From contig CM027382.1 of the NCBI GenBank assembly GCA_015680905.1, positions 13,985,501-14,049,500 of the forward strand: DNA of 64,000 nt, written 5' to 3'. Shown here in pieces: positions 815 to 63,101 of this stretch (position 1 is the first letter of the stretch; each line of letters begins with the position of its first letter). The notes beneath the pieces were generated by a model. It did no database searches, had not been told where the DNA came from, and was given only the letters and a program-made list of their open reading frames with translations. The position numbers and the translations under genes were made by a program. Source of the DNA: Coptis chinensis. Lineage: Eukaryota; Streptophyta; Magnoliopsida; Ranunculales; Ranunculaceae.

Positions 815-835
815 CACTACACCATAACTGGCTAT

Positions 836-1090
836 TTGCAACGGCAAAAAACCGTTGCTAATAATTTTCGCAACACTTTTTAAGCGTTACAAATATGGCT
901 TGGGTAAAGCGTTGGGAATATTTGCAACGGTTAATAAGCGTTGCAAACAGAAATTTCCAACGGTCAATAAGCGTTAGTAATATGTTAAAAATATTACCAA
1001 CGGTTCTTAACCGTTGCAAAGTTGTTTGTTAATTTAAAAAAAATCATTTAAAAATCATTTGTAACGGTTATAAACCGTTGCTGATGGGTT
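836..1090. repeat. Left subterminal repeat array of the CACTA element
   Basis: About ten short copies, in both orientations, of GCAACGGTTAATAAGCGTTG-type units: CAACGG, AACCGTTGC, AAGCGTTGC and AACGGTTATAAACCGTTG. In CACTA elements such subterminal repeats are the binding sites of the TNPA/TNP1-type protein. The function here is inferred from the family. Confidence 0.75.
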
Positions 1091-1289
1091 GCTAAAAAAA
1101 AAAATTAATTTATCATATTTTGTAGCCACATTGCTTTATGTGCAAGCTTAATCAAGGCCAAAATTACAACTTTACAAGTCTGCAAAGTAAACTTCCGAAT
1201 TGGAACAAAACCTTAAAAACAGTAATTAGTTATAATAATAACAATTATGATACTAGTACTGATGGTCAACAAATAATGACCATACTTAC

Positions 1290-1711
1290 ATCAGCAATTA
1301 GAGGGCACAAAATATCTTCTTGGCCATATTGTTTACTAGCAACAACAACTTTCATGCGGAGAACAACTTCATCCTTGTTCCTTACATCCATAATCTCTGA
1401 ACCTTCCTCTACCAACTCATCTAAAAGTTCAATTGCCTGAAAAATAAATATACAAAAAAGTCTCAATTCATACACTTTATCAAGATGAGTTCTTTCCAAA
1501 TATAAATACAAACCTTAGCAATAGCTTTAGTGTATCCACTAATAATTTCACTCGGGTGCAATCCCGACCTGATAAGCTCCTCAGCATTTTATAAAAGTTC
1601 CCCAGAAAATGATATCGTTAGATTAGTTCCATCACCAATTTCCTCATGCTATGCCTTTCCAGCTAACACCAATATCTTTGCTCCAATAGTCTCTCCTCCA
1701 CATGCGGCGAG
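1290..1711 (-). pseudogene. CCT8: Captured fragment of CCT8 (T-complex protein 1 subunit theta)
   Basis: Two exon-like blocks on the minus strand match plant CCT8, a subunit of the cytosolic chaperonin TRiC that folds actin and tubulin. Block one (about 1540-1711) contains EEIGDGTNLTISFSGELL and EELIRSGLHPSEIISGYTKA. Then comes an intron (about 1440-1538, donor GTTTGTATTT). Block two (about 1290-1439) contains EEGSEIMDVRNKDEVVLRMK and ASKQYGQEDILCPLIAD, ending at a GTAAGT donor. Two glutamine codons expected in block one read as TAG and TAA, consistent with C-to-T decay. Only the middle of a roughly 545-residue protein is present. The piece is directly preceded, with no intron, by ABC-transporter sequence. 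Confidence 0.85.
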
Positions 1712-2490
1712 CTTGTCACCTCCAACATCCATGTTGCCGGATTGTATCCATCTCGTATCTTTGGGACTCCATTAACACTCTTGAAAAATAAAATCAAGTT
1801 GTTCAAGATCTGATTAAGTCACGAAAGTGATAAAACCAAGAACTCAACAGCAAGTTCCATGTGTCCTCACCTCAAAGTACTTAATTAGATGGCAAGAATT
1901 GCAGCCCCAATGGTCCAACATATATTTCTTCTCCTCCTCGTTTCATTAGGAAGAGCTGCAAGCATGTAGAAAGACTTAATACTTACCCACCTTTAGTTGT
2001 ATGAGATATATATATATGCGTGACTCAACCCCTCGTAATGTGGTCGGGATCCGGGAACTCGGGACAATTGTCTTGGTGTGTCAAATTTGTCAATAATAAC
2101 TAGTATATGTATGTCAATCTTTTGAGTCCTTGGAACCCCACCCTATATCGTCAAAATGTAAGCGACACACTGTCATTGACAATCTCATACCTCATCAAAC
2201 GCCTCAAAAATGTCAATGCTAGGTGGTGAATGGTGCACACCACAGTTCTTCCACGGTGTCCACCGTGTGTTCCTCACGGGTCCTCATCACAATAGTACCG
2301 CTCTCGGCATCAAGTCCGAGGTTGGTTCATCCATGAAAATTATGGAGGGATTGGCAACCCAGCTCAACTGCAATAGTGAGCCGCTTACCTTTGCTCGTTG
2401 AGAGCCCATTCACTCCGTGCAACCCTACTAGTGCTCCCCTGAGTGATTTCAGTTCAACAAGTTCCATGACTTCCTCAATAAACATCTGCG
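1712..2490 (-). pseudogene. Captured fragment of a PDR-type (ABCG) full-size ABC transporter
   Basis: Three exon-like blocks on the minus strand match the second nucleotide-binding domain of plant pleiotropic drug resistance transporters. Block one (about 2185-2490) reads [20 protein letters not shown] and KRLTIAVEL, then, past frame changes in the Walker B region, IDIFEAFDE and a GTATGAGATT donor. Block two (about 1870-1957) reads LFLMKRGGEEIYVGPLG, ending near LIKYFE. Block three (about 1712-1790) reads NGVPKIRDGYNPATWMLEVT and then runs straight into CCT8 sequence. Introns separate the blocks, so the source was genomic. The parent is a plasma-membrane exporter of about 1400 residues. Only about 150 residues are represented, so this is not functional. 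Confidence 0.82.
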
Positions 2491-2964
2491 ACATTAGATT
2501 TCCGAGTTAGATAATACCATGTATTAGCTATAACCATCTCTCTAGACACTCATGCAACTACCCAGAATAGGCCCACAGCCATTTGATCAATTAACAGTAG
2601 TAGAAAGTAATGTCTCAACAACTGCAACAAGGCAATCCAAAGACGTCATTGAAAGCTAAAAAAGAAGAGAACTCTAACCTCTGCTGAAACTTATGTCTCA
2701 GAACTCGAAAATGAGACCATATAAAAATTTCATAACTTGAACAAGATGGATAGGTTTCTAAATCAAAGTTATCGAAATCAATAAAGTTACCTTTAGTGCA
2801 CTTTTCACGGACTCAATGACTCAAACTCAACAAACCAAAAGCAGAATCCCCCTCGCTGGCCGAAGTAACAACCAATAGAGAACCAAAACCACATTAAAAA
2901 AATTGCAACCCATGATATGTTTGACAAATGTTAATTAAGGAATGAGGAGAGTATATATTAGTAC
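2491..2964. other. CACTA interior without recognisable coding sequence
   Basis: Intron-like AT-rich sequence upstream (in minus-strand sense) of the ABC transporter block, ending in an acceptor-like CGCAG next to the block. I see no further exon. The left breakpoint of the 22 kb tandem duplication lies at about 2940 within it. Confidence 0.5.
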
Positions 2965-3087
2965 TTCTGACTTGTATACCATTTGGTCTGATTTTCCCAA
3001 AAGTTTTGAACTCTTCCTCGACTTCTGAGATTGAAGCATTTAAGGGCAAACTCTTTACATAGATAGAGTAGGTATAGAATGTTTGCG
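2965..3087 (-). pseudogene. Captured exon of a G3BP-like NTF2/RRM protein
   Basis: The minus-strand exon lies between an acceptor CTGCAG and a GTACTAATAT donor. It reads YSIYVKSLPLNASISEVEEE then FKTFGKIRPNGIQVRS. This is the start of the RRM of plant G3BP-like proteins (NTF2 domain followed by RRM), with the RNP2-like IYVKSLP and the helix SEVEEEFKTFG. Parent proteins bind RNA and are linked to stress granules. The rest of the RRM and the NTF2 domain are absent. A degraded version sits at 25170-25310 just after the duplication junction. Confidence 0.78.
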
Positions 3088-3955
3088 CTGCAGATCCAAT
3101 ACCCAAATAAACAAATCTTAGAGATACCTGAACACATAATCAAGCACAATTCCTTTTAGTAAGCACATCAATAAAACTCCAGTAGTATGGTTTGGAAAAC
3201 TGATTATCATACTTTAGCCAGTTGCGAAGAGTCAACTCCTTTCTAGTTTCAACTACTTATTAGTTCAGCACGAAACAATAGTTAATAAACAAAATAAATA
3301 GAATATAATGAGTGAAAGCGAGAGAGTTAAAAAATGTGCACTGCGGAATTATATTCAATATATGTGTTGTGTGCTACCTGGTAAAAGTCTACAACTGTCA
3401 TGGAAAATTATGGTGAAAGGTGCTACAATTCCGCCGTGGTTTCTCCCAGTGAGAGTGTGTGTGGTCAGAGAAAGATAAGGGTGGCTAGGCAAAAAAGGAA
3501 AGTGAGGGAGATGGGGACGAAGTGGTGAGTGTTTCATTTGGAAACTCCATTAAGTGTAGCCAACAATCTAGCAAGGCATGTGAGAAAGTTCGATACCATC
3601 TCATTTCAAGGAAGAAGGAAAGCTTAAAGCTTATCCAAGAACATACAAAAACAAAAATATTTCACTGCTCAAACACATGCACCAACACTCGACATTATAA
3701 CAAAATTCAGTGTCTTCCAATGGGATCATTCCAAAACTTGCATGATTAGACTTATTCTAGAACTGCATTTTAAGTTAATGAGAAACTGAATATATTTCCA
3801 AATATTCAGTGAAAATCTACAACAAAAAACTGGATAGGGGAACAAGTTAATGAGAGAAGCCTAAACAAAATTAACAAAAAACAAAAAAACAAAAAAGACA
3901 ATAAGATATTTCACTAAACCAAACCAAAAAAAAAAGAAGGAAAGAGAGACTCACA

Positions 3956-4345
3956 GTGAATGCATTTTCCACCAAATGAAATACACGCCCTTGCATACCA
4001 ACAAGCTCATCAAAGGGCACATCTTCAGCACCATCAACATCATCCAAACCATCAAACATCTGTTCAACTTGTGCCTCAAGGCGTCTTTGCTTGCATTTCC
4101 AACTGGCGGCGACATTCTCTGCATTTCTTCTAATCATTTCACCAGCCCCAACAATACCTTGACCACCACCAACATTCTCAACGTCATCCATTCTATTTGC
4201 CACAACAGGTGGTCTTCTAGCAGCACGAGCACCGTCATCTCTCTCAACATCCTGAGCACCACCACCAATCTCCCTTAAATGTCTAAAATAATCCCTCAAA
4301 GAAGTAGCTCCAAGAAATATAAAAACAATACTAGCAGAAAGTAAG
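3956..4345 (-). pseudogene. Captured fragment of a DOA10/SUD1 (CER9)-like membrane E3 ubiquitin ligase
   Basis: The minus-strand exon starts ASIVFIFLGATSLRDYFRHL and continues through an R/E-rich loop (GAGEMIRRNAENVAA, EAQVEQMFDGLDDVDGAEDV). It ends VPFDELVGMQGRVFHLVENA then FT at a GTGAGTCT donor. This matches the region after the first transmembrane helices of plant SUD1/CER9, the homologue of yeast Doa10, an ER-membrane E3 ligase acting in protein quality control and in cuticle and sterol metabolism. The parent exceeds 1000 residues and has an N-terminal RINGv domain, absent here. About 130 residues are retained with an open frame. The unit B copy (26150-26470) is more scrambled. Confidence 0.85.
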
Positions 4346-4509
4346 ATACATGACTCAAAAACAATCTATGTGCCTCACTAAAACTCCTGACAAATGACAA
4401 CCTCCAAATCCAAAATGTAATAAACAGTATTATAAGTAGCTAAATTGAAAGTACAAACACAAGTCGTAAAATAAACTGCAAAATCTAGCTCCCTTAAATC
4501 TAGCTCTCA

Positions 4510-4620
4510 CAAATTTCAGTGAGTAAAGATATTTTCCGCTTCCTGTGAGCGCTCTTTCCAAAAGGCTTCTTTGTACAAAAGAGCATTCTTTCTATTATGA
4601 GCGGCCTGAAAACGCAAGTG
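4510..4620 (-). pseudogene. Short unassigned coding-like piece in the CACTA cargo
   Basis: The minus strand reads AAHNRKNALLYKEAFWKERS before losing frame. The amino-acid usage looks protein-like, and the piece sits between the F-box/LRR-like and SUD1-like fragments. I do not recognise the family. It could be a further captured exon or chance. Confidence 0.3.
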
Positions 4621-4710
4621 AAAGTATGTGAACAAATAACTAAACTTTGCACCTACTGCTAGTCAAACTTTAAGTTATTACACAAAAGAACATACTACAA
4701 AATACTCACA

Positions 4711-5060
4711 AAAATATCTAATTCCTTCAGATATGGTGCGCTTCTACATAGGCAAAGAACAGCAAGAATTTGTTTGGAGTCTTCGAAGTTGACACACAAT
4801 GTGATGGATTTGAGGTGACTATAAGTTCCTTGTAATCCCTCTCTTGCAGTATTAATTGGGGAAAGCTAGAAACCAACAGAGAAAACAAAAGTCACTAAAG
4901 TCGGGAACTAAATTGTATGAAGACAAACATATAGGATTATAGGAATGCCAAAGAAACTTACCTCCGTGAACTGATAGTCAATAAAAAATTGCTGAATTTC
5001 ATCTAGCTGCCCACAAACTCTTGGAAAGGTAGCATATTTTGTGTTTGCTAGATTGTTGGC
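4711..5060 (-). pseudogene. Captured F-box/LRR(FBD)-like fragment
   Basis: Minus-strand exon (about 4711-4866) with leucine-rich-repeat spacing: GTYSHLKSITLCVNFEDSKQ, ILAVLCLCRSAPYLKELDIF. This resembles the LRR/FBD part of plant F-box proteins, the substrate receptors of SCF ubiquitin ligases. A second block (about 4970-5050) reads FPRVCGQLDEIQQFF and may belong to the same source. The F-box itself is not visible. The match is to a very large, fast-evolving family, so the assignment is general. Confidence 0.55.
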
Positions 5061-5344
5061 TACACTTAATGGGGGGGGATAGAAAGAAACGGCGTACGAG
5101 ATGATGATATAAACTGGATCTGGATCGAGATGATGATTTTGAGGAAAAAGAATTTCAATTGTAGGGATTTTGAAATGCGTATGAGAAGGTATTGAGCCTT
5201 GAGCTTCTTGAATTGAATAGAGAGAGGGAGAGCTGACGAGTAAGAGTGTAGCGGTTGTGAGAGAGAGAGAGAGAAGGGGGAGGAGGCTGGAGAGTGTAGA
5301 GGCGGTGAGAGAGAGAGACAGAGGAGAGAAAATAAAATTATGTT

Positions 5345-5520
5345 TTAAGTTTTTAATTTGTAACACTTCACAAACGCTTTTTAAGCGTTAACAATTAATT
5401 CCTGAAATTCACTTAAATAAACCAACGCTTTACAATATTGCCAACGCTTATGTAGCGTTGGTAACTTGCTAACGGTAAATAACCGTTGCAAAGCAAAAAA
5501 TGTGCGTGTTGCAAATATCC
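5345..5520. repeat. Right subterminal repeat array of the CACTA element
   Basis: Mirror of the left array: AAACGCTTTTTAAGCGTTAAC, CCAACGCTT, GTAGCGTTGG and AACGGTAAATAACCGTTGCAA motifs occur before the terminal TATTATGGTGTAGTG. The unit B equivalent is at 27543-27690. Confidence 0.75.
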
Positions 5521-5538
5521 TATTATGGTGTAGTGAAA

Positions 5539-5909
5539 TTCGGGACAAGGTTCGGAAGATAACTTTGATCAACATGAGGTATATGTATGGCAACATGCAT
5601 TCCCTGAGATATAACTATGTCATAGCTCCATGGGTTATCCGGATCGGAAAGAGCTGGAACAAAAGACTCGTAAGGACCTTGAGATGAAGAGTAGGGCTCA
5701 GCAGGGTGTGGGATACGCAAATCACATATAATAGCCTTATGTCCCACAAAGTCCATATTAGCAGCTCTGTATATGTTAGCAAGCAATATAGGACCCCTTG
5801 AGACGTAATCCCAGTAACTATCATAGTCACTATTCACATCTAAATATAGAGAAACTTGTGGCCACAAGTCTTGATTCATTCTAAGATAGAACCTCCACAA
5901 TTTCAACAT
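5539..5909 (-). pseudogene. N-terminal part of an unidentified ORF split by the CACTA insertion
   Basis: The minus-strand open frame starts MLKLWRFYLRMNQDLWPQVS and runs about 120 residues through NPWSYDIVISQGMHVAIHIP and VDQSYLPNLVPNF, where the CACTA terminus begins. The continuation on the far side is at 580-814. It lies inside the PIF/Harbinger-like element. The protein is not a transposase I know and could be a captured host exon or an element ORF. A scrambled second copy is at 27707-28075 in unit B. Confidence 0.4.
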
Positions 5910-25150: not shown

Positions 25151-27706
25151 GAATGAGGAGAGTATATATTAGTACTTCGACTTGTATACCATTTGGTCTG
25201 ATTTTTCCCAAAAGTTTTGAACTCTTCCTAATTCGAGGCCCCAAGCATTTAAGGCAAACTTCTTTACATAGATAGAGTAGGTATGGAATGTTAAAGGCAG
25301 ATCCAATACCCAAATAAACAAATCTTAGAGATACCAACACATAATCAAACACAATTCCTTTTAGTAAAGTTTATCAATAAAACTCCAAGTAGGGTATGGT
25401 TTGAGAAAACTGATTATCATACTTTTAGCCAGCCATGAAAGAGTCAACTCCTTTCTAGTTTCAACTACTTATTAGTTCAAGACTTAAACAATAGTTAATA
25501 AACAAAATAAATAGAATATATATGAAGAAAGCGTAGAGAGTTAAAAATGTGCATCATGGAATTATATTCAATATATGCGGTTGTGTGCTACCCGGTAAAA
25601 GTCTACAACATCATGGAAAATTATGGGTGAAAGGTGCTATGCATTCATTAGTTTCCCCATTGAGAGTGTGTGAGTGGTCGAGAAAGATAAGGGGTGGCTA
25701 GGGCAAAAGGAAAGTGAGGAGATGGGGACTAGTGGGCGAAGTGTTTCATTTGAAACTCCATTATGTAGCCAACAATCTAACAAGGCATGTGAGAAAGTTC
25801 GATACCATCTCATTTCAAGGAAAGAAGGAAAGCTTAAAGCTTATCCAAGAACATACAAAACAAAATATTTCAATCGCCAAACACATGCACCAACACTGAC
25901 ATTATAACAAAAATCGGTGTCTCCAATGGGATCATTCCAAACTTGCATGATTAGACTTATTCTAGTTGCAATTTTTAAGTTAACGAGAACTGAATATGTT
26001 TCCAAATATTCGAAAATCTACAACAAAAAACACGATAAAAGGCACAAGTTAATGAGAGAAGCCTAAACAAAATTAACAAAAAAAAAAAACAAAAGACAAT
26101 AAGATATTTCACTAAACCAAACCAAAAAAAAAGAAGGAAAGAGAGACTCACGGTGAATGCATTTTCCACTAAATGAAATACGCCCTTGCATACCAACAAG
26201 CTCATCAAAGGGCACATCTTTCAGCACCATCAACATCATCCAAACCATCAAACATCCGTTCAACTTGTTCCTCAAGCGTCTTTGCTTGCATTTCGGCTGG
26301 CAGCGTGACATTCTCTGCATTTCTTCTAATCATTTCACCCCAACAATACCTTGACCACCACCAACATTTCAGCGTCATCCATTCTATTTGCCACAACAGG
26401 TGGTCTTAGCAACGACGAAACCGTCATCTCTCAACATCCACGAGCACCACCACCAATCTCCCCTTAAATGTCTAAAATAATCCCTCAAAGAAGTAGCTCC
26501 AAGAAATATAAAAACAATACTAGCAGAAAGTAAGATACATGACTCAAAACAATCTATGTGCCTCCACTAAACTCCCGACAAATGACAACCTCCAAATCCA
26601 AAATGTAATAAACAGTATTATAAGTAGCTAAATTGAAAGTACAAACACAAGTAAAGTAAAATAAACTGCAAAATCTAGCTCCTTTAAATCTAGCTCTCAC
26701 AAATTTCAGGTGAGTAAAGATATTTTCGCTTCGTGAGCTCTTTCCAAAAGGCTTCTTTTGTACAAAAGAGCATTCTTTCTATTATGAGCCGGCCTGAAAA
26801 CGCAAGTGAAAGTATGTGAACAAATAACTAAACTTTGCACCTCTCGCTAGTCAAACTTTTAAGTTATTACACAAAAGAACATACTACAAAATACTCACAA
26901 AAATATCTAATTCCTTCGGAGGATATGGTGCTTCTACATAGGCAAAAGAACAAAGCCAAGAATTTGTTTGGAGTCTTCAAGTTGACACACAATGTGATGG
27001 ATTTGAGGTGACTATAAGTTCCTTGTAATCCCTCTCTTGCAGATTAATTGGGGAAAGCTAGAAACCAACGGAGAAAACAAAAAGTCACTAAAGTGGAACT
27101 AAATTGTATGAAGACAAACATATGGGATTATAGGAATGCCAAAGAAACTTACCTCAGGTGGGCCGATAGTCAATAAAAATTCTTTGATTTCATCTAGCTG
27201 CCCACAAACTCTTGGAAAGGTAGCATATTTTGTGTTTGCTAGATTGTTGGCTACACTTAATGGGGGGATAGAAAGAAACGGCGATCGAGATGATGATATA
27301 AACTGGATGCGGATCGAGATGATGATTTTTGAGGAAAAAGAATTTCAATTGTAGGGATTTTGAAATCGATGAGAAGGTATTGAGCCTTGAGCTTCTTGAA
27401 TTGAATAGAGAGGAGGGAGAGGCTGAAGAAGAGTGTAGCGGTTGTGAGAGAGAAGCGGGAGGATTTTGGAGTGTGTAGTGAGTGAGAGAGAGAGCAGAGA
27501 GAGAAAATAAAATTATGTTTTAAGTTTTAATTTGTAACACTTCACAAACGCTTTTAAAGCGTTAACAATTAATTCCCTGAAATTCACTTAAATAAACCAA
27601 CGCTTTTACAATATTGCGGCGCTTATGGCGTTGGTAACTTATTAACGATAAATAACCGTTCCAAAGCAAAACAATCGTGTTGCAAATATCCTATTATGGT
27701 GTAGTG
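25151..27706. mobile_element. Right half of the CACTA element (unit B)
   Basis: Begins at the duplication junction inside the G3BP-like fragment and ends at TATGGTGTAGTG. It retains degraded copies of the G3BP-like exon (about 25170-25310), the SUD1-like exon (about 26150-26470) and the F-box/LRR-like block (about 26920-27070), all on the minus strand. It lacks the left terminus and so cannot be mobilised as a unit. Confidence 0.85.
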
Positions 27707-50776: not shown

Positions 50777-52161
50777 TGATAAACGAAAAATGAATAGTCT
50801 ACCTACGAAATGAACGATGAATCCACAACGTAAGTAAACTAAACTTTTTACTTGATGCTCTCTTGTTTATCAAAGATTTTATTCTACTCTCAACCAATTG
50901 AGATATAGGTGAGTAGATAGAGTTCGTTCCACTCCTAGTACTCTAGCATGGATGTTTTCTAATCTAACTAGTCGTTTTTAAGTCTATGAGAGTTTTACGA
51001 AGGGAATTATACTACGATGCAACTACCCACAAGATGCAACTAGTCGGCTATCGGAATACTAAGGGAATGCTACGTTGATTCTATGATAAGGAGTTAGAGG
51101 GGGATTGATTCCACCTTAACTCAACTTAATCCACTAACGATTTAATCGTCAGAATCCGAATTGAAATCGCGCAGAACAATTGGTTATTCCTAATCCCTAA
51201 TTATACATGGCATTTCTACCAATTCATAACTAGCATGTGAACAATTAAACCCATTCTCATGGTGAACTAATCATTTCTAGAGTGGAATAGAAAATACGAT
51301 TTAATTTTACGATAATCGAATCAAGCTTTCATCAAGGCTTCACAACCCCTCTAATGGAGGTTTAGCCTTGAATCATTCGCAATCATTTCCATTTATATTA
51401 AAACTAAACATAATATAAAGCATTGAAATTTATTTAATTAAACAATAATGAAATCTAATTTAATGACTAAAATCAACTAAGGACATAAATTGAAATTAGA
51501 TCTAGAATCGAATTGACAAAAATCGAAATGGATAAAGAATACTACTTTATTGATCTAATCAAATGAAGAACAAGATTCAAAGGTTTAATCTAATAAGGGA
51601 TTTGAAACTAATTAAAGAAAAACAATTAAATCTAGATCTAGAAGCTATTTTAATGGCTACTTTCTATTCTAAGCTATGAACCCTAATTCTCTACTAATTA
51701 ATCTACCATTAACAAAGACTTAAGCTTTTGTTCTTATACATTCAGATCCAAAATTCGTGCATGGGCTTGGAGCCAGGGTTTGGGCCGCAGAATCGTGCCC
51801 AAAACCCAATTCTTTCAAATTCAAAAGGCCTCTTCAGCTGCAGTTGACTTCCACAGACTTTTCGTCCACTTCTGCTCCTCTGATTGGGTCAAGGCTTGGA
51901 CCATTACAAAGCTCTTTCCGAGCCGGTCGTTTTGACATAAGGTATGCCCAATTCGAGGTCCGAGTCCAAAGATACGGCTTTGAAGTTCTCACGACTTTTG
52001 CTCCTCAGATCTCGCTAAAGTGGTACATTTCGCACATAATGGACTTTAAAGCCCGAAATGCATAAAAACGCTAAGAATCGTTAACTCTTACTTATTATTC
52101 ACATAATTGGTCTGACAAGATGATTATTAGGGGTTAAAACTACAGTTTTGGGCTCTTATCA
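50777..52161 (-). repeat. 3' LTR of the Athila-like element
   Basis: Bounded by GACGC on the left. A polypurine tract (AAGGGGTGGTT on the minus strand, about 52162-52172) lies immediately inside it, as expected for the 3' LTR. Confidence 0.92.
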
Positions 52162-61709: not shown

Positions 61710-63101
61710 TGATAAACGAAAAATGAATAGTCTACCTACGAAATGAACGATGAATCCACAACGTAAGTAAACTAAACTTTTTACTTGATGCTCTCTTGTT
61801 TATCAAAGATTTTATTCTACTCTCAACCAATTGAGATATAGGTGAGTAGATAGAGTTCGTTCCACTCCTAGTACTCTAGCATGGATGTTTTCTAATCTAA
61901 CTAGTCGTTTTTAAGTCTATGAGTTTTTCGAAGGGAATTATACTACGATGCAACTACCCACAAGATGCAACTAATTAGGCTGCCGAATCGAATACTAAGG
62001 GAATGCTACGTTGATTCTATGATAAGGAGTTAGAGGGGATTGATTCCACCTTAACTCAACTTAATCCACTAACGAATAAATTAATCGTAACTGAATTGAA
62101 TCGCCATGAGAACAATTGGTTATTCCTAATCCCTAATTATACATGGCATTTCTACCAATTCATAACTAGCATGTGAACAATTAAACCCATTCTCATGGTG
62201 AACTAATCATTTCTAGAGTGGAATAGAAAATCACGACGACTCACGACAATCGAATCAAGCTTTCATCAAGGCTTCACAACCCCTCTAATGGAGGTTTAGC
62301 CTTGAATCATTCATAATCATTTCCATTTATATTAAAACTAAACATAATATAAAGCATTGAAATTTATTTAATTAAGCAATAATGAAATCTAATTTAATGA
62401 CTAAATTGAACTAAGGACATAAATTGAAATTAGATCTAGAATTGGAATTGACAAAAATCGAAATGGATAAAGAATACTACTTTATTGATCTAATCAAATG
62501 AAGAACAAGATTCAAAGGTTTAATCTAATAAGGGATTTGAAACTAATTAAAGAAAAACAATTAAATCTAGATCTAGAAGCTATTTTAATGGCTACTTTCT
62601 ATTCTAAGCTATGAACCCTAATTCTCTACTAATTAATCTACCATTAACAAAGACTTAAGCTTTTGTTCTTATACATTCAGATCCAAAATTCGTGCATGGG
62701 CTTGGAGCCGGGGTTTGGGCAGGAGAATGGGGCCCAAAACCCAATTCTTTCGATCCCAAAAGGCCTCTTCAGCTGCAGTTGACTTCCACAGACTTTTCGT
62801 CCACTTCTGCTCCTCTGATTGGGTCAAGGCTTGGACCATTACAAAGCTCTTTCGAGCCGGTCGTTTTGACATAAGGTATGCCCAATTCGAGGTCGAGTCC
62901 AAAGATCGGCTTTTCGGAAGTTTCTGGCGACTTTTGCTCCTGTATCTCGCTAAAGTGGTACATTTTCGCACATAATGGACTTTAAAGCCCTGAAATGCAT
63001 AAAAGCGCGTAATCGGTGTTAACTCTTACTTATTATTCACATAATTGGTCCGACAATTATGATTATTAAGGGGTTAAAACTACAGTTTTGGGCTCTTATC
63101 A
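61710..63101 (-). repeat. 5' LTR of the Athila-like element
   Basis: Directly comparable with 50777-52161 over its full length. Ends TG...CA. Confidence 0.92.

Follow-up and report, generated by a model that had tools for sequence, protein, structure and literature searches.

The window analysed here, a 64,000-nt stretch of the Coptis chinensis genome (contig CM027382.1 of assembly GCA_015680905.1; C6:13985501-14049500), contains at positions 815-5535 one CACTA-type DNA transposon that carries pieces of six host genes (Table 1). The first 13 bp of the element, CACTACACCATAA at 815-827, recur as an exact reverse complement in its last 13 bp (5523-5535), and a first-pass annotation, made from the letters of the window, was right in describing perfect CACTA ends within an AAA target-site duplication (TSD). 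The 28-bp arms of the terminal inverted repeats (TIRs) are 89% complementary, and AAA stands directly on either side of the element. Fifteen subterminal 7-mers were counted in the element ends, against a mean of 0.19 and a maximum of 2 in 300 shuffles; the element middle holds none, a zero which alone is not significant given its shuffled mean of 0.85. Helitrons possess neither TIRs nor TSDs, and this element has both. Target duplications of 3 bp and subterminal direct and inverted repeats are described for the CACTA superfamily (PMC8978399; the literature is cited here and below for the available portions of each source). Furthermore, the genome holds empty versions of this insertion site: when the flanking sequences were fused with one AAA between them, they matched continuous genomic sequence at no fewer than 40 places with 92-95% identity, and all of these matches span the joint (40 of 172 first-look candidates scored), indicating that the element went into a dispersed repeat as a single unit. 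This host site (661-814 plus 5539-5700) is part of another repeat, similar copies of which are dispersed over at least 40 genomic places. No transposase domain was detected in the seven ORFs (open reading frames) scanned out of the 41 listed for the element region, as in a non-autonomous element. Only 113 of the 4721 element bases lie outside the transposon ends, the host gene pieces and one short additional piece.

Table 1. Positions, within the window, of the element, its cargo and its duplicate, with the further cargo-bearing insertions in the genome.
Feature	Position	Strand	Remarks
Left target-site duplication AAA	812-814		
Left terminal inverted repeat	815-842	+	first 13 bp perfect
CACTA left terminal region	815-1133	+	AACGGTT/AACCGTT-type subterminal repeats; 10 of 15 motif matches
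CCT8 (T-complex protein 1 theta) fragment	1134-1682	-	two exon pieces with introns
PDR-type ABC transporter fragment	1692-2788	-	
G3BP-like (NTF2 and RRM gene) fragment	2783-3071	-	two RRM exon pieces
ABC_membrane (presumably ABCB-like) transporter fragment	3089-3409	-	sixth gene
Short piece	3437-3543	-	best match L046 (95.3%); not counted as gene
SUD1/DOA10-like E3 ligase fragment	3546-4483	-	exon and intron
28-bp arm from SUD1-like intron	3547-3574	+	at start of SUD1 fragment
F-box/LRR (FBD-associated) fragment	4489-5013	-	three exon pieces
Exact inverted copy of the 28-bp arm	5045-5072	-	filler between F-box piece and right terminal region
CACTA right terminal region	5073-5535	+	also in relatives without this cargo
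Right terminal inverted repeat	5508-5535	-	
Right target-site duplication AAA	5536-5538		
Second, left-truncated element copy	25151-27706	+	from tandem duplication of 2940-25150
Further independent cargo insertions			L009, L010, L011, L012 (= L013), L014, L015, L016, L018 with L017

The cargo was searched in five stretches against the assembly (936 Mb, 116 contigs), and the source loci were then fetched and read. For each of the five gene fragments named in the first-pass annotation, the genome holds a source locus at another position; the list had missed a sixth, the ABC_membrane piece, and its count of at least five unrelated host genes was therefore conservative. The CCT8 piece matched T-complex theta in the PDB (E=1.3e-4), and its source locus on C8 (L037, 95.8% identity) encodes a Pfam Cpn60_TCP1 domain (E=2e-34). 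The PDR piece matched pleiotropic ABC efflux transporters in the PDB (E=0.0013), although a PDB search with its third exon gave no match, and its source on C3 (L030), near other C3 PDR matches, yielded Pfam ABC_tran (E=8e-6). At 2520-2524, ~1.67 kb is missing from this piece, a stretch present in most copies and in the source locus; the part at 2520-2788 was initially read as CCT8, a reading dropped because the source locus shows a further PDR exon there. The gene at 2783-3071, which we take to be G3BP-like following the first-pass annotation, derives from a locus on C1 (L031, 88.5% identity) with NTF2 (E=1.4e-8) and RRM_1 (E=0.0061, below cut-off); the RRM_1 match of the piece itself was also below cut-off, and a PDB search with the RRM region of the element returned nothing below E 0.2. 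The ABC_membrane exon VSLRFVYLGIGSA runs in frame into the G3BP RRM exon, and its source on C2 (L023) is 95.7% identical over 321 bp, with a neighbouring ORF that matched Pfam ABC_membrane (E=5e-14). For the next piece, whose gene we presume to be SUD1, the neighbouring ORF at the source on C6 (L021) carries RINGv (E=5.8e-18), and this locus holds ~1.2 kb that the element's piece is without. The F-box piece is closest to a locus on C8 (L019, 98.1%; second locus L020, 97.0%), at which Pfam identified F-box (E=4.1e-6) and LRR_At5g56370 (E=1.2e-12). Among ten source-locus proteins submitted to Pfam, three remained without a family (the region of the captured SUD1 exon, one ORF at L023 and the ORF at L046), and among the seven raw element ORFs only one weak RRM match and one acyl-carrier match were obtained, both below the curated cut-offs. 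The short piece at 3437-3543 was considered as a seventh gene and rejected, because a stretch overlapping it occurs at at least 12 other places as a dispersed repeat and because the ORF at its best-matching locus has no Pfam match.

All six pieces are read from the minus strand of the element, for which the chance under independent orientations is 1 in 32, and introns are retained, as the first-pass annotation had it on both points. The intron sequence of the element aligns with the source loci, and by eye 17 of 17 splice dinucleotides are present both in the window and in the sources; the presence of introns indicates capture at the DNA level. The six source loci lie on five chromosomes (C8, C3, C1, C2, C6 and C8, in cargo order), and every one of them carries further exons of the same gene. 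Counting substitutions only, and only columns in which at least 75% of the copies agree, the majority base of the copies differed from the source at 1.2-3.2% of sites (CCT8, 17/546; PDR, 10/770 and 3/259; G3BP, 6/272; ABC_membrane, 10/311; SUD1, 21/843; F-box, 6/518), and the window's own element differed from the sources in 1.7-6.6% of aligned columns, gaps included.

The genome holds at least nine independent cargo-bearing insertions, namely the window element and at least eight others, a lower bound since 40 of 1771 first-look candidates were scored. L012 and L013, whose flanks are alike at 98%, were counted once, and L018 and L017 were taken as the two parts of one element that ~9 kb of later-inserted DNA had separated. 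Matching 3-bp TSDs were found in seven of the nine (AAA, AAG, ATT, GTG, GTA, TCA and TTA), the remaining two, L010 and L016, having damaged right ends. These independent insertions, together with the empty sites, indicate mobility. Thus, the search for parental loci and other copies that the first-pass annotation had proposed returned both, and its assignment to Pack-CACTA is supported by the source loci and by the independent copies in the same genome; of the two observations it had named as counting against it, fragments belonging to separate insertions and a lack of copies sharing cargo and termini, neither was made, since further copies share both the cargo and the ends. The 28-bp left terminus gave 1328 genome matches at up to two mismatches and none with a reversed control, a figure that counts ends rather than elements because right ends can match as well at this tolerance.

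The copies and their relatives differ in how much of the cargo they carry. L014 (7.9 kb) and L016 (right end missing) contain two extra stretches, one of 1.67 kb that matches the PDR source locus throughout and one of ~1.5 kb that matches it only in part. The second stretch is absent from L010, L011, L012, L013 and L018; L015 has kept only some of the first and nothing of the second; and the window element and L009 are without either. At the joint of PDR and G3BP lies a 6-bp microhomology, AAAGTT, common to the window element, L009, L010, L011, L012 (= L013) and L018, not present in L014 and L016, and lost in L015, a distribution indicating that this joint is a later deletion. The left terminal region and its joint to CCT8 are common to L024-L029. 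Among these, L024-L028 have the left and right ends of the window element and a portion of its CCT8 piece around another middle, constituting a sibling Pack-CACTA subfamily; the middle of L028 holds a DUF1644 gene piece, and the flanks of L024 and L027 are alike at ~95%. In L032 and L033, the G3BP piece lies 11-19 bp from the right-end region, and the preceding 7-base string GTAT(T/A)GA at this joint recurs, with one mismatch, at the joint of G3BP and ABC_membrane in the window element. Near the G3BP piece of L033, an ORF at 2582-2893, whose weak match to RlmN_N does not reach the curated cut-off, is possibly another host fragment.

The coding potential of the cargo was assessed in part from the CCT8 stops, which ten rows cover; with L012 and L013 counted as a single insertion, these rows represent nine independent ones. 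One CCT8 stop was found in 10 of 10 rows and another in 9 of 10 (the last being gapped), and both are absent from the source locus; L029 carries the second only. Per copy-site, the rates of difference from the source in exons and introns were 0.033/0.042 for CCT8, 0.038/0.042 for PDR, 0.035/0.051 for G3BP, 0.027/0.056 for SUD1 and 0.034/0.011 for F-box, the last being the only one of the five regions with the higher exon rate. Sites variable in any copy relative to the source amounted to 195/1799 in exons and 119/1218 in introns. No clear constraint on the cargo exons of the copies emerged from this exon/intron comparison with the source, a weak test. Codon-position counts had no consistent pattern (CCT8 exon B, 1/18/10; CCT8 exon A, 19/4/42; F-box exon 2, 13/8/7; SUD1, 23/21/17), the PDR count being unusable because the projected source frame has stops, and each of the nine copies shows 12-20 gap columns in its PDR exons. 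All copies that cover them retain 15 of the 17 splice dinucleotides; of the other two, one persists in 8/9 and one in 7/9 copies. The shared CCT8 stops and the lack of clear exon constraint make a conserved protein unlikely, and judged from its sequence the cargo is most likely not protein-coding.

A direct tandem duplication of ~22.2 kb (2940-25150 and 25151-47431) has its left breakpoint inside the CACTA element, and the cargo copy at 25151-27706 is accordingly a segmental duplicate, not a product of transposition. Private differences amount to 6.3% in this second copy and 0.7% in the first, a figure lowered by the use of the first as the alignment reference; the tandem duplicate may have been sequenced less accurately or may be an artefact of assembly. 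Differences between copies are ~2- to 10-fold commoner near CG and CHG sites, depending on the copy, which may reflect decay of methylated cytosines or base-calling error. Single frameshifts in the window copy should not be over-read, and shared stops are the safer guide. Both 22.2-kb units carry Mlo-family exons. Elsewhere in the window, a 1.4-kb direct repeat (50777-52161 and 61710-63101; 94.5% identity, ~11 kb apart) is possibly a pair of long terminal repeats.

Collectively, the ends, target duplications, source loci, independent copies and partial-cargo relatives lead us to read the element, with a probability of roughly 0.9, as a non-autonomous Pack-CACTA that captured, at the DNA level, parts of six host genes on five chromosomes and then moved as a unit. 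The partial-cargo relatives, shared joints and inverted filler suggest that it was assembled stepwise, probably via repair with template switching. At a first stage, CCT8 would have been present in a left half, and G3BP would have been attached to the right end; PDR would have been added at a second; and at a third, a block of ABC_membrane, SUD1 and F-box would have been inserted between G3BP and the right end, an order suggested by the recurrence of the short 7-base string at both G3BP joints. Internal deletions would then have shortened the PDR part twice (~7.9 to 6.4 to 4.7 kb), the window element being the shortest form. Capture itself would have occurred as breaks or gaps were repaired with template switching, after which a CACTA transposase provided in trans would have moved the element by cut and paste. 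The exact inverted 28-bp copy of SUD1-like intron sequence between the F-box piece and the right end looks as a templated filler would. For metazoan Pack-TIR elements, gap filling and template switching with microhomology and fillers have been proposed (PMC8277862). Several observations weigh against parts of this account. Template switching has few joint features as its basis, the joints other than that of PDR and G3BP having no clear microhomology and the recurring string being only 7 bases long; in L029 the upstream part of PDR directly adjoins CCT8, which makes the PDR step uncertain; and a TIR-like string with three mismatches lies at the joint of ABC_membrane and the short piece. Also, an autonomous partner was not found by comparing listed positions, among 100 of the 1328 termini and 44 transposase matches on C1-C3, where the closest pair among the matches listed was 29.7 kb apart and the termini compared reached only the early part of C3; nor was a transposase recognised by eye in the long ORFs of several relatives. 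In favour of the account, the genome contains Transposase_21 candidates (150 of 2715 scored, all above cut-off).

The TIR-like string would fit another origin of the cargo, the fusion of neighbouring Pack-CACTA insertions that lost their inner ends and carried off the DNA between them, which is the published capture model for Pack-CACTA, reported for Arabidopsis (PMC8903248, PMC13317346); the element also unites left and right parts that are found apart in its relatives. However, that string is also part of a dispersed repeat, and such strings occur in the window at chance level (23 against 21.4 expected). The six sources occupy no single neighbourhood, the middle lacks subterminal motifs (with the low chance expectation given above), and an exact inverted filler is not predicted by fusion. 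We thus regard fusion as the less probable route, though one to be taken seriously: the evidence leans towards template switching for this family, and recombination between elements may also have played a part. That several separate insertions or an assembly artefact mimic one element has next to no probability. The tandem duplicate with its differences clustered near CG and CHG sites, and two locus pairs with common flanks, do indicate that parts of the assembly are duplicated or noisy, but for the element this is refuted by the empty sites and by independent insertions that keep one cargo order and differ in their TSDs.

A further question is whether the cargo was retained because it makes a chimeric protein with a function or a regulatory RNA acting in trans. 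The co-orientation of the six pieces, the retained splice dinucleotides and an exon rate below the intron rate in four of five regions would agree with such retention, and the exons of the soybean CACTA element Tgm-Express1 are spliced into chimeric mRNAs (PMC1947982). Yet the two CCT8 stops are common to copies and not in the source, the proportions of variable exon and intron sites are those reported above, a lower exon rate can stem from constraint on the source genes, and in copies so young the splice sites are expected to be kept without selection. Retention for function is accordingly very unlikely. If transcribed, the cargo would be a cassette of splice-competent exons, and by analogy with the soybean element the assembly could possibly make chimeric transcripts or small RNAs, as the first-pass annotation had suggested. 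A bolder proposal, that the family assembles co-oriented exon cassettes by template-switching repair across chromosomes, that transcription or splicing from the right end would underlie the orientation bias, and that the family would supply, from mobile copies, chimeric exons or small RNAs directed at the six host genes, appears improbable to us, though somewhat less so than retention for function.

The element family is a well-documented new example of a kind known from other plants rather than a new kind. Tgm-Express1, from the soybean wp allele, measures 5.7 kb, belongs to the CACTA superfamily and carries fragmentary intron and exon sequence from five unrelated host genes (PMC1947982); the Coptis element shares the superfamily and this type of cargo, and differs in having six genes, a multi-copy family, located sources and partial-cargo relatives, whereas splicing is demonstrated for the soybean element and the Coptis element is known from its DNA sequence. 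Pack-CACTA and other Pack-TYPE elements of Arabidopsis, maize and rice are likewise non-autonomous and carry DNA from one or more loci, maize elements with several loci having been reported (PMC8903248), but in Coptis the inverted filler and microhomology point to repair instead of neighbour fusion. In maize Helitrons, stepwise capture of gene fragments is similar, and their sequential build-up was reconstructed from relatives (PMC3288121), although the Coptis element has TIRs and 3-bp target duplications. Gene models placed on 815-5535 would be annotation artefacts. For TIR transposons two capture routes are on record, neighbour fusion in Pack-CACTA and gap filling with template switching in metazoan Pack-TIRs; because the Coptis family is young, its sources are located and its relatives stand at apparent intermediate stages, each joint can be read here against its source.

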